DNA of 64,000 nucleotides from Periplaneta americana (Eukaryota > Arthropoda > Insecta > Blattodea > Blattidae), in the NCBI RefSeq assembly GCF_040183065.1, contig NC_091123.1:8129001-8193000 (forward strand). The letters are read 5' to 3'. Each line of letters opens with the position of its first letter. The stretch's first letter is position 1. Shown here in pieces: positions 60,601 through 63,035 of this stretch. Both the position numbers and the translations under genes were made by a program. The notes under the pieces were generated by a model. It searched no databases and was not told the DNA's origin. It worked only from the letters and a program-made list of their open reading frames with translations.

Positions 60601-63035
60601 GATTCCCTGCCATCACCAGTGTGGTCCCAGTGTGTAGTTCACAAGGAGCACTACAAAAGCACATTCTGTATGTGAGATGTAACAGTTAGTGTGTTTAACA
60701 CATGTCAGTCACCCATAATATAACAACTGGTTACCCATCATCAAATTCGGTAGCAACAATGTACTCCCACATGTGACTCATAACTGGAGCATCGGCCCTG
60801 GAGAATCAAACCATTTAACATTAAGTGAAGCCTTCAACAATGCTTTAATAGCTGACGGCATCTCGGCCAATGAACCAACACCAAACAAAAAAGAGAACTG
60901 GAAAATAAAACAGCATAGAAATAAACCCAGCAGAGAATGGCGCTCTGCCAACCACCAGTTTGCCAGGATAATGTCAAGGACGAAGACAGGATCGAGCAAA
61001 GAGGGAAACTAGAACAGTGAGATATTTACAGTTGCTGTAATTACTGACTGCAGAGTCGAGTATTGTCTGTTAGCTGACAAGATGTTCAAGACTTCTACTA
61101 TAACAATTTCACAATAACCTTTTACAGCATCAAAATACTTTATCAAATGAGAAATAAAAGTCCCCCGAAAATGGTTGACAGTTTAAGCCTGTAACTTAGT
61201 AGATGTGTTTGAGTCTACTCTACAAACCCAACCATTTGATATGGATTTCATTAAAATATATGTATTCCGTTGGCGAACTCCCCTTACAAGACAGTAAGGT
61301 AAGACAGACAAATGATAATTGTCAGTAGAGACTGATTAACTTCATATCTGTCGTTTTCTTATCACGTTTTAATGGAAAACAAGAAAATTAAGTATATGTC
61401 AAAAACTTGTATTGAATTTCTTACATTTTGATGTGCATATTCAATTATTATTAATAAATTGCTCAATATTAACGGAGGTCTGGTGAGCTGTGAATCCCAT
61501 GGAATATACGACACCAACAATTTCCGTGTCATTTCTAGTTTATTTTTTATAGATAATGTAAACAGGTCATCATTATCAATGTGTATAAAGTGTAACATAC
61601 ACAGGGCATCAAGCTTTCAATAATTTTATTATTGAATTCATATATAAATAAATAGGCCTACATTTTAATAAATGTAGGAAAACTACGGAGTGATTACATG
61701 TATGAACTCTGTTTTGGAATACAATGTTTCTTTCATTTCTTCACAAAATGCAGAATTAAATGAGCCACTGAAAAAAGACTGACATTATGAAAATATTACT
61801 TAAGAATACGTTGTTGTATAGATTCTGTAAATAAAAAACAAGTGTTTCTGGGATTCATTAAAAACTTGAGTTATGTTTCTTTCACTTATTGTAATAATTC
61901 ACGTTATTTTGAGATTGATAAGTGCCTTTTTTTGGGGTTATGGGAAGAAGAATAAAGAAATTGTACAATGAATTGGCGTTATCACATCTCAAGAATTTTA
62001 CAGGTCTAACAGTACAGCAAAGTGTGGAAAATCAAGATTACACTGCTGTAAAAACTAGAAGAATGTTTCGTTAGGAAGTCAACTCTGGTAGCCAAAATAA
62101 AAAGTACTGCAACAATGAAATGACATGTTTTGCTTGAAATTAATATTTTCATGGCACTCATAATGCCAGCAACTTCCATAATATATGGGAACAATTTAAC
62201 GCATTATTCTACTGATATCACATGTTCGCATATATGTAATGTCTTCATATTAACATTATCTGCTGCACTGCCAATGTATGACTGTCAACTCTGCTACTTT
62301 CAGCTCTCTGTAAAATTTAAAAAGGCATTGCTTTGGAAAGACTTCATAATTTTATTATTAATGGTGGACCTAAACAACACCATTGAAAGACTAGGAGAAA
62401 GATTAATCTGCACTGAAAGTACAAATGTTATGCTGGCGATATGACGGCCATTTTGTTGTGAAGTTATTTTATAGTACTGATACACAAACTTCAAGATCCT
62501 GTGAGTCAGAAACGTGGGAAAAAAAGAAACGTTCTCACATATCTGTTACGAAGTCCTGAACAGAATGAAGTCAGGTATAAATATCTCTTTTAAGTTTATA
62601 TTTGCTTCAAGGCAGCCTGTTTAATTCCTGTGGAACAGGAAAACAGTAGAGCTTTAAGATCCTTTTCAGGTCGTCTTGATGAAGATAATGCCACAAATGT
62701 ATTGTGACATAGGTCCTACAGCTTTACTTGCCTCCTGGAGGATGTTTTACTTTAGATTACTTTATTTGAAACATAGAGCACCATCAGTCGGGTTTGAACC
62801 TCTGACAGATGCATAGGAACCATAGACCACCAAAGAATAACCCACTACTGGAGACAGGCAGATAATGTGTCTTTTATCCCTCCCCGATATCAATCAGCTA
62901 ACAGACAATAATGAAGATAAGGACGAAGAAAAATGGAGGAATGGGATGATGCGTAGTTGTGTTTACCCGCTGAGAGATGTCATCTCCTGCACGATGATGA
63001 ACTCCCAGAAGTGCGACATAACAGCTGCGTCCGCC
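45516..63035 (-). CDS. CPT1: Carnitine O-palmitoyltransferase 1, 3' half of the gene (seven coding exons)
   Basis: CPT1 transfers long-chain acyl groups from CoA to carnitine at the mitochondrial outer membrane. It is the malonyl-CoA-controlled entry step of fatty-acid oxidation. The exons, in transcript order, are 63035-62967 or 60797-60735 (alternatives), then 53913-53799, 53159-53025, 52486-52349, 49073-48714 and 45620-45516. Introns have GT donors and AG acceptors and all phases fit. Together they encode about 305 residues, against roughly 770 for the whole family protein, so this is the C-terminal 40%. Diagnostic motifs are [48 protein letters not shown] and [16 protein letters not shown], which separate CPT1 from CPT2. 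The transmembrane N-terminus and the catalytic His lie upstream, beyond the window. Confidence 0.95.
46002..46200. mobile_element. 183-bp MITE with 8-bp target duplication
   Basis: Element 46010-46192. The left end CACAGTCTACTATATACAGT continues into CACGAAGCTTGAG. The right end is its inverted form, GAGCTTCGCGACTATATATA then CTAGACTGTG. The 8-bp duplication ATGTGTAC lies at 46002-46009 and 46193-46200. There is no coding capacity. The sequence resembles a small repeat I associate with several arthropod genomes, but that is recollection, not a search result. Confidence 0.88.
46569..46684. repeat. (ATT)n microsatellite
   Basis: About 38 ATT units with a single ATC interruption; the longest simple repeat in the window. 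Confidence 0.97.
46759..47020 (+). mobile_element. tRNA-derived SINE with 9-bp target duplication
   Basis: The head contains CAGCCCAGTTGGTTAAGGCG (A-box region) and GGGTTCGATTTC (B box). The body includes TTACCTGGTTGGATTTTTCC, and the 3' end is A-rich. AAGTATAAA repeats at 46750-46758 and 47021-47029. Same family as 48398-48655 and 11294-11500. Confidence 0.88.
47496..47700. mobile_element. Possible pogo-like element end
   Basis: TACAGTAAAATCTAGTTTTA followed by ACATTCCCG and GGAAACCCGGTTAAAAG resembles the left terminus of pogo/Tigger-type elements, which insert at TA. No right end was found. Confidence 0.3.
47932..48060 (-). mobile_element. LINE 3' end with (AAT)n tail
   Basis: An (AAT)n tract (about 47932-47982) passes directly into TTTATACTGGCAGAGTTAAG, GCCATAGGGCCTTCTC and CTACCAGGTCACAAAGTATA. 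Much the same sequence (ACTGGCGGTGTTCAGGCCAT on the minus strand, then CCAGGTCACAAAATACA) forms the 3' end of the LINE at 56540-57265. The microsatellite is therefore the LINE's own tail. Confidence 0.6.
48398..48655 (-). mobile_element. tRNA-derived SINE, minus orientation
   Basis: It matches the SINE at 46759-47020 on the opposite strand: TTGATTATTTAACGATGCTG, GACATTCGCCTTATTATTGG and CCAGGTAATCAGCCCAAGCG. The tRNA-like head (ACCGCCTGAGCTATGCCAGT) is at the high-coordinate end. It ends about 60 bp from the splice donor of the CPT1 exon at 48714-49073. A loose TATTAT flank may be the target duplication. Confidence 0.82.
48714..49073 (-). CDS. CPT1: CPT1 exon encoding the acyl-CoA/carnitine-site core
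   Basis: This 120-codon exon is phase 0 at both ends. The acceptor TTTGGCAG precedes GTGGAGGAG and the donor GTAAGT follows SSPET. It carries [16 protein letters not shown] (28-43), [13 protein letters not shown] with the carnitine-binding STS motif (53-65), and the glycine-rich [16 protein letters not shown] (84-99), which lines the acyl pocket in the family. All family hallmark residues are intact. Confidence 0.97.
49198..50523 (+). mobile_element. PIF/Harbinger transposon with decayed HARBI1-like nuclease
   Basis: The element runs 49201-50520. Left end CGCCCAGTTGCAGAAACACC and right end GCGTTTCTGCAACCGGGCCC are inverted relatives. TTA and TAA lie just outside, compatible with the TWA target preference, though not an exact direct repeat. 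The plus strand encodes [27 protein letters not shown] and [14 protein letters not shown] (49627-49893), the helix-turn-helix and first DDE-Asp region of HARBI1-like nucleases. After a stop it continues with [19 protein letters not shown] and then [20 protein letters not shown] (from 50080). The right third is non-coding. It lies in the intron between CPT1 exons 52349-52486 and 48714-49073. Confidence 0.85.
51224..51293 (-). other. tRNA-like sequence, probably a SINE head
   Basis: The minus strand reads GATAGCTCAGTGGTAGAGCA (A-box arm) and GCAGGTTCGAATCGCGC (T arm). The acceptor stem pairs poorly and the anticodon stem has a mismatch, so a functional tRNA is unlikely. The surrounding 51164-51400 may be a SINE body, but no other copy is present. 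Confidence 0.4.
51600..52060 (+). pseudogene. LINE reverse transcriptase C-terminal fragment
   Basis: The plus strand reads LRGKVRME-like, [12 protein letters not shown], then [38 protein letters not shown] and [14 protein letters not shown], ending ETGT and GATGATG. This is the typical end of insect LINE ORFs (YGSETW ... FLR..G...D). It is 5'-truncated and frame-broken, inside a CPT1 intron and antisense to that gene. Confidence 0.7.
52349..52486 (-). CDS. CPT1: CPT1 exon with the [19 protein letters not shown] motif
   Basis: 46 codons, phase 0 at both ends. The acceptor is TTGGCAG and the donor GTAAAAG. It encodes [20 protein letters not shown] then RTETVRPC. In carnitine acyltransferases the YE-x5-F-x2-GR-T-E-x-V-R motif contacts carnitine and all its residues are present. 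It continues directly from LAYFK of the preceding exon. Confidence 0.97.
53025..53159 (-). CDS. CPT1: CPT1 exon with [20 protein letters not shown]
   Basis: 45 codons, phase 0. The acceptor CTGCAG precedes GTGGCACTG and the donor is GTAAGG. It encodes [20 protein letters not shown], then [19 protein letters not shown]. The G-K-x-x-x-K-K/E-x-x-x-S-P-D segment supplies the CoA-binding lysines in this family. Confidence 0.96.
53305..53590. repeat. Degenerate ~65-bp minisatellite in a CPT1 intron
   Basis: Four imperfect units carry (A)ATTGATAGGT(T/C)GGxxxGATAAA at 53334, 53399, 53466 and 53527, spaced 65, 67 and 61 bp. They are separated by AATAAATGAATGAAC-rich sequence. Similar AATAAATGAATG composition continues to about 53760. 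Confidence 0.75.
53799..53913 (-). CDS. CPT1: CPT1 exon common to both alternative upstream exons
   Basis: 115 nt: one base completing a Gly codon, then 38 codons ([20 protein letters not shown], then LHWDLSPPC to SYQ). The acceptor is TTTTGTAG and the donor GTAAGG. It matches the family's G-YAEDGHCKG ... LQWDIP region. Its 5' phase accepts the GG end of either alternative exon at 60735 or 62967. Confidence 0.95.
55700..56168 (+). pseudogene. LINE reverse transcriptase C-terminal fragment
   Basis: The plus strand from about 55720 reads [40 protein letters not shown] across one or two frames, then [10 protein letters not shown]. This resembles the terminal domain of insect LINE RT proteins (HxTR ... 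SF ... WNxLP ... FK..L). A 3' untranslated region with A/T runs follows up to the SINE. Confidence 0.55.
56169..56424 (-). mobile_element. tRNA-derived SINE with 11-bp target duplication
   Basis: Opposite-strand relative of the SINE at 3694-3958: GGTTATTTTACGACGCTTTA, CCGGGGTCCAGCACCGAAAG, and reversed B box GGGAATCGAACCTGG, with the head at ACCGTTACTCCACAGGTGTG. TCAATAAATCT repeats exactly at 56158-56168 and 56425-56435. Confidence 0.92.
56540..57265 (-). pseudogene. Decayed LINE reverse transcriptase, 3' portion
   Basis: The minus frame 56895-56536 reads [32 protein letters not shown] and [17 protein letters not shown], the RT C-terminal region of a common insect LINE type. Upstream (57265-56900) broken frames read SVxFST-like [22 protein letters not shown] and [10 protein letters not shown]. 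The 3' end (about 56570-56640) includes GGTGTTCAGGCCATAAGGCC and an ATT tail. Confidence 0.75.
57371..60734. other. Intron sequence without recognisable genes
   Basis: AT-rich, with short frames only (59192-59443 minus has no domain). At about 60470-60700 a GGGGTTCAAATCTCAG motif following TAGTTTAGTCAGC might be a decayed tRNA-SINE head. Confidence 0.4.
60735..60797 (-). CDS. CPT1: CPT1 alternative exon A (proximal)
   Basis: 63 nt: one base completing a Trp codon, 20 codons ([20 protein letters not shown]), then GG of a split Gly codon. The acceptor is TTCTCCAG and the donor GGGTAACC. It matches the family's HSW-ADAPxxxHxWEY segment, which follows the catalytic His directly. It retains the conserved Pro of ADAP and Tyr of WEY. 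It is interchangeable in phase with 62967-63035. Confidence 0.93.
60798..62966 (-). other. Intron between the two alternative CPT1 exons
   Basis: About 2.2 kb of AT-rich sequence with no supported feature. The plus frame at 60773-61012 overlaps the antisense of exon A and is not a gene. A GGGTTTGAACC motif at about 62790 is isolated. Confidence 0.5.
62967..63035 (-). CDS. CPT1: CPT1 alternative exon B (distal)
   Basis: 69 nt: one base completing a Trp codon, 22 codons ([18 protein letters not shown], then TSLS), then GG of a split Gly codon. The acceptor is TTCTTGCAG and the donor GGGTAAAC. It encodes the same segment as exon A with identical start and end phases but is two codons longer, with Ala instead of Pro at position 4 and WEF instead of WEY. 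Using both exons in one transcript would duplicate the segment, so mutually exclusive use is inferred. Confidence 0.9.

Follow-up and report, generated by a model that had tools for sequence, protein, structure and literature searches.

The window, a 64,000-nucleotide stretch of the American cockroach (Periplaneta americana) genome, carries on its minus strand exons 10–15 of a complete CPT1 gene, exon 10 being represented by two copies, 10A and 10B. The relevant features are the following.

65616–65641 on the scale of the window (C7:8194616-8194641, beyond the window), minus strand: CPT1 exon 9, the catalytic-His microexon (IGFNAEHS-W), 26 nt
62967–63035, minus strand: CPT1 exon 10B, 69 nt, 22 residues, the transcript-upstream copy
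60798–62966, minus strand: intron 10B–10A, 2169 nt
60735–60797, minus strand: CPT1 exon 10A, 63 nt, 20 residues, the transcript-downstream copy
53914–60734, minus strand: intron 10A–11, 6821 nt
53799–53913, minus strand: CPT1 exon 11, 115 nt, common to both forms and joined by 10A or 10B
53025–53159, minus strand: CPT1 exon 12, 135 nt
52349–52486, minus strand: CPT1 exon 13, 138 nt
48714–49073, minus strand: CPT1 exon 14, 360 nt
45516–45620, minus strand: CPT1 exon 15, 105 nt including the stop codon

The presence of two versions of a short exon beside the CPT1 active site, proposed in a sequence-only reading of this DNA, is confirmed, both exons lying at exactly the coordinates given there. 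In the transcript, the order is exon 9, 10B (hereafter B), 10A (A), and exon 11, and exon 9 with its catalytic His directly precedes the pair, in agreement with the proposed position. Both exons have AG directly before and GT directly after them, open with the third base of a Trp codon, and close in GG, which is completed by the A at 53913; the identical phases, canonical splice sites, and in-frame joining of either exon to 53913 that had been read from the sequence all hold, and the resulting frames are open to the end, giving full-length proteins of 777 aa (A-form) or 779 aa (B-form). That reading said nothing of strand or exon order, of the microexon carrying the catalytic His, of the stop codon created when both exons are skipped, or of the P479 position. 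It had also placed the segment on the membrane-proximal catalytic face of the enzyme, a view that found no support anywhere in the analysis. Its interpretation is thus borne out in part, and its further suggestions of mutual exclusivity, altered kinetics, and a single duplication older than the divergence of the insect orders stand as proposals.

The identity to human CPT1A is 54.7% for the A-form and 54.5% for the B-form. The choline/carnitine acyltransferase family PF00755 is matched over the whole model (1–574 of 574) with 625.7 bits (A-form) and 622.2 bits (B-form; cut-off 22.3), and the CPT1 N-terminal domain is present (PF16484 CPT_N, 89.3 bits, cut-off 27), the N-terminus also matching those solved for brain CPT1 (2m76) and liver CPT1 (2le3). 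In both forms His471, within the EHSW motif, is the catalytic His and the counterpart of human H473, the role of which is dealt with in excerpts from PMC10076611. NCBIfam yielded no family for a 319-residue piece, and a single scan of viral_contigs and another of genome_contigs brought up no relative. Among the best candidates scored in the assembly, identity at the CPT1 level (73–100%) occurs at C7 only, the other loci showing at most 51% in single exons; no second CPT1 locus was found, and the gene is apparently the sole one in the genome. The paralogue check covered three of five genes (C10, the first C12 gene, and C17; the C11 gene and the second C12 gene, whose catalytic exons were not identified, were left out). 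In these three, the reading is open through the catalytic His and onward, without the intron that CPT1 has there, and no second copy of the segment was found in their own stretches (E up to 1).

The resemblance of the two exons was assessed by a scan of 134 kb for phase-compatible, stop-free segments of 48–90 nt bounded by AG and GT (1804 on the minus strand, 1668 on the plus strand). With exon A as the query, B scored 51 and the next minus-strand segment 11; with the human CPT1A segment, A scored 50, B 37, and the third 10, A being the closer of the two to the human enzyme. On the plus strand no segment scored above 14 with A as the query or above 5 with the human segment. No third copy of the exon was found in the 134 kb. 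A nine-residue match to B (VMSHFWLFV, 44029–44055, minus strand, E 0.04) was rejected as such and regarded as chance, because it lies past the CPT1 stop codon and its own frame stops 8 residues on. Exons A and B share the core ADAxVMSHxWE and keep 11 of 17 residues despite 20 base changes, against a random expectation of 5.3 (P 3.5e-5), and a stop was created in 40% of the random-change trials. Since synonymous change is saturated (pS 0.93) while the protein is conserved (dN 0.33), both copies have long been under selection. The similarity is limited to the exon, the best flank match being 42 nt, from 3 nt before it, and the others 9–11 nt; this loss of all flank similarity, together with the synonymous saturation, indicates that the duplication is old.

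It is highly probable that A and B are alternatively used, and most likely mutually exclusive, exon copies in a single CPT1 gene, forming the counterpart of the Drosophila withered/CPT1 pair. The fly gene (withered, whd; Price et al. 2010, J Biol Chem 285:7857) is reported to have alternative exons, labeled 6A and 6B, which adjoin the catalytic His and encode about 21 residues, and such a pair reportedly occurs at the same place in all insect genomes sequenced by 2010. The cockroach likewise has apparently one CPT1 gene and two homologous exons of about that length beside the catalytic His, whereas the cockroach introns around the exons measure kilobases. As the phenomenon has been published for Drosophila and, reportedly, for all the insect genomes then available, its occurrence here is a modest surprise. 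Excerpts from PMC7767417 describe two Drosophila CPT1 isoforms produced by alternative splicing, with differing kinetics and tissue use, which bears out the alternative exon use ascribed to the fly in the sequence-only reading, and in excerpts from PMC10352773 fly CPT1 is described as a target of splicing factors. As far as these excerpts extend, both papers treat insect CPT1 in Drosophila only, and no cockroach report of the exon pair was among the matches listed in the literature search, which were mostly off-topic.

Among the competing explanations, the one that survives best, unlikely as it is, holds that A and B are genuine exons in use that arose by a separate duplication in the cockroach lineage, and thus are not the Drosophila pair by descent. 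A resembles B about as closely as it does the human segment, and more closely than B resembles the latter, so that the sequence alone does not place the duplication early. However, the synonymous saturation and the vanished flank similarity point to an old event, and Price et al. 2010 reportedly found the pair, at the same place, in all insects whose genomes had been sequenced by then. Common descent with the fly exons is the more probable origin.

When both exons are skipped, TG|A forms a TGA stop at the junction, directly after His-Ser, and the mRNA would therefore be truncated and a candidate for decay. When both are included (B–A), the frame is kept and an 800-aa protein results, which scores 622.7 bits against PF00755, with no penalty; hence, the reading frame cannot enforce exclusivity. 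The second alternative, that A and B are two cassettes whose joint inclusion gives this third protein, is very unlikely: the B–A joining is in frame and no barrier was found, with a 2169-nt intron between the exons and pairing no higher than chance, but a doubled segment beside the active site is absent from the five solved relatives aligned (all carnitine acetyltransferase), and the fly precedent consists of two isoforms.

The cockroach exons are adjacent, homologous, of the same phase, and each sufficient alone, as in mutually exclusive exons. In the Dscam1 type, mutually exclusive exons are accompanied by competing RNA structures; the cockroach exons are similarly tandem, homologous, and equal in phase, but have two copies only, and exact complementary 12-mers between the introns occur at shuffled frequency (1, 7, and 4, against means of 1.65, 4.95, and 3.85 in 20 shuffles), with none of at least 14 nt (no 14- or 16-mers), these counts covering exact matches. 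Exact intron pairing above chance that would enforce exclusivity was therefore not found, steric exclusion is unlikely because 2169 nt separate B and A, and U2/U12 incompatibility was judged by eye only. The donor scores (A 3.15, B 5.22) are matched by those of constitutive exons 5 (3.91) and 13 (5.21), and this weakness is hence not special to the pair. As to splicing-factor motifs, given as raw counts, TGCATG does not occur within 300 nt of either exon. TGTTTG, for which the gene background is 0.12 per 300 nt, lies once upstream of A and once upstream of B, and YGCY occurs five times upstream of A (background 2.5); such counts are too few and a poor foundation. Fly splicing-factor papers from one laboratory make no mention of CPT1 or carnitine, nor does PMC6071210, on competing structures, mention whd or CPT.

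The segment spans the residue altered in the human Arctic variant P479L, with Pro in A and Ala in B, and the position of human L484, with Met in A and Phe in B. It is possible, though doubtful, that exon choice swaps these residues so as to make the B-form naturally malonyl-CoA-resistant, while the double-skip TGA guards against a segment-less enzyme. No insect CPT1 work touching P479L or H483 was among the matches listed in the literature search. That B is instead a relic or hardly used, A alone being functional, is barely credible: B is the farther from human CPT1A and has Ala in place of Pro479, but its frame and both splice sites are intact, its core is kept despite synonymous saturation, random change, as above, seldom keeps as many residues and often gives a stop, and its donor is stronger than that of A.

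If A and B are mutually exclusive copies, as we favor, exon 9 would be spliced to one of the two, and that one in turn to exon 11, and the resulting 779- and 777-residue enzymes would differ only in 22 or 20 residues, starting three past His471. Both exons would then be used in transcripts, and splicing factors acting on the rather weak alternative donors probably set the exclusivity. According to excerpts from PMC7767417, the vertebrate isoforms CPT1A, CPT1B, and CPT1C differ in their affinity for carnitine, in their inhibition by malonyl-CoA, and in the tissues that use them. These are products of separate genes, for which exon choice may stand in within the cockroach, where it would most likely adjust, from tissue to tissue, the affinity for acyl-CoA and the sensitivity to malonyl-CoA.

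CPT1 is the gatekeeper enzyme of fat burning, and the exon pair would let one gene make two variants of it. The arrangement itself is already known, having been described in fruit flies, and an alternative exon pair is now placed in a cockroach, distant from flies in the insect tree. With the exact coordinates it can be tested how tissue-specific enzymes might come from a single CPT1 gene, and the P479 position offers a direct, testable prediction on malonyl-CoA control; should it hold, alternative splicing would let insects flip exactly the switch point that is altered in Arctic human populations.

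The sequence-only reading had placed a duplicated CPT1 exon just after the catalytic His, and its two versions, exons 10A and 10B, are confirmed here within a minus-strand gene that extends past the edge of the window, which spans C7:8129001-8193000. The gene was read from the window and seven flanking stretches with human CPT1A as the probe, a sequence that agrees with all 17 of the 17 residues named in PMC10076611. It comprises 16 exons at 15 coding positions, every intron being GT–AG.

CPT1 exons (window numbering, all on the minus strand; values above 64000 lie outside the window)
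84111-83971, minus, exon 1, outside
80253-80117, minus, exon 2, outside
77363-77087, minus, exon 3, outside
74470-74349, minus, exon 4, outside
73989-73788, minus, exon 5, outside
72215-72016, minus, exon 6, outside
69515-69311, minus, exon 7, outside; end ambiguous by one codon
66620-66513, minus, exon 8, outside
65641-65616 (C7:8194616-8194641), minus, exon 9, just outside; 26-nt microexon with the catalytic His
63035-62967, minus, exon 10B
60797-60735, minus, exon 10A
53913-53799, minus, exon 11
53159-53025, minus, exon 12
52486-52349, minus, exon 13
49073-48714, minus, exon 14
45620-45516, minus, exon 15

Exon 9 encodes IGFNAEHS, including the catalytic His471, and two bases of a Trp codon; 10B and 10A each open with the third base of this codon and close with GG, the codon being finished by exon 11. 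The earlier claim of identical phases, canonical splice sites and in-frame joining of either version to exon 11 holds, both predicted proteins (A-form, 777 residues; B-form, 779 residues) being open and matching Carn_acyltransf over the whole length, and CPT_N too. When the minus strand was scanned over 134 kb, it gave 1804 open segments of compatible phase, of which 10A and 10B score 50 and 37 against the human segment and the third-best scores 10, so that their first and second ranks against this segment alone are far beyond chance; no third copy of exon 10 was found among these segments.

The A-form was also searched against the assembly (3,231,669,367 bases in 91 contigs), which matches in size and scaffold count the Periplaneta americana assembly PAMFEO1_priV1 (GCF_040183065.1), given in PMC12774602 as 3.23 Gb in 91 scaffolds, 17 of them chromosome-sized. 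Among the best candidates scored, CPT1-level identity occurs only at this locus on contig C7, other loci reaching at most 51% over single exons. PF00755 (Carn_acyltransf) also matches loci on contigs C10, C11 and C17 and a pair of neighbouring genes on C12, and the C10 catalytic exon, judged by motif, is presumably CPT2-like. On C12 (G000:C12:171606554-171656139) the matches recur in order, suggesting two adjacent carnitine/choline acyltransferase genes. Seventeen of the 44 A-form matches listed are dispersed and stop-containing (CPT1 residues ~570-675, 25-29% identity, E 0.02-0.94; for example, G000:C10:160601536-160601808, C11:119685699-119685968 and C17:119856369-119856638) and are probably one repeat family matching by chance. 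Elsewhere in the window, two head-to-tail minus-strand copies (~24600-29100 and 29100-33600, spaced 4511 bases) show 0 mismatches over 4429 bases compared, each with frames resembling by eye an endonuclease/reverse transcriptase (883 aa) and a zinc-knuckle protein (485 aa); to judge from the sequence, either a non-LTR retrotransposon was duplicated very recently or the assembly created the second copy. A 147-aa open frame at 17356-17799 (minus) resembles by eye the 3' end of a retrotransposon reverse transcriptase.

Over 17 ungapped codons, 10A and 10B show 20 base differences, of which 11 fall at third positions, and share 11 residues, one being a serine encoded from two separate serine codon families. 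When 20 substitutions, assumed independent and uniform, were placed at random in this small sample of codons, at least 11 residues were retained in a fraction of 3.5e-5 of 200,000 trials, and a stop was created in 40%. Because synonymous differences are saturated (pS 0.93; dN 0.33), residues are conserved and only pieces of 9-11 nt remain similar in the flanking sequence, the duplication is old, with both copies retained as protein.

Since the last bases of exon 9 are TG and the first base of exon 11 is A, omission of exon 10 creates TGA right after His-Ser (472-residue product) even though the exon length is divisible by three; exons 8, 12, 13 and 14 likewise have lengths divisible by three, and skipping any one of them leaves the frame open to the end. 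Inclusion of both 10B and 10A gives an open reading of 800 residues, and hence the frame protects against zero copies of exon 10, not against two. Steric exclusion is unlikely, as 10B and 10A are separated by an intron of 2169 nt. Complementary 12-mers among the three introns occur at shuffled frequency, with none as long as 14. By donor scores computed from splice-site frequencies, 10A has the weakest of 15 donors (3.15) and 10B the fourth weakest (5.22), those of exons 5 (3.91) and 13 (5.21) being equally weak and those of exons 9 (9.71) and 11 (11.47) strong; of the GT sites that occur by chance within these introns, 14% score at least as high as the 10A donor and 3% at least as high as that of 10B. 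With the other mechanisms disfavoured, and given that fly CPT1 is described as a target of splicing factors (PMC10352773, citing Gingras 2014 and Bennick 2019), the choice would most likely be made by such factors. One Drosophila CPTI transcript, CG12891-RB, is among the NMD targets given in PMC2689934.

The exon 10 segment corresponds to residues 476-496 of human CPT1A. Position 483, with a role in malonyl-CoA sensitivity, is His in both versions; in place of L484, A has Met and B has Phe, whereas the Pro of P479 is kept in A and replaced by Ala in B. The Arctic variant P479L has 2-22% of normal activity and is moderately malonyl-CoA-insensitive (PMC8290072), with malonyl-CoA interaction affected (PMC4444093), and P479L and L484P are tabled with reduced activity and stability (PMC10076611). 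The Pro/Ala exchange, as predicted here, is not to be over-read as P479L, since Ala differs from Leu, and since the position is occupied by Val in three cockroach paralogues and by Pro in the aligned carnitine acetyltransferase.

Two alternatively spliced CPT1 isoforms of D. melanogaster differ in kinetics and tissue use, according to a review (PMC7767417) that draws on Price et al. (2010). The core interpretation of the cockroach pair as alternative CPT1 exons is plausible; its exclusivity, function and ancestry are unproven. The details added are the His microexon, the stop on skipping, the lack of a frame barrier to double inclusion, and Pro/Ala at the P479 position. Price et al. (2010) reportedly found a single CPT1 gene, with a pair of alternative exons encoding a region of 21 residues, in every insect genome sequenced by that time; were this the case, the cockroach would add one more example of an arrangement already known.
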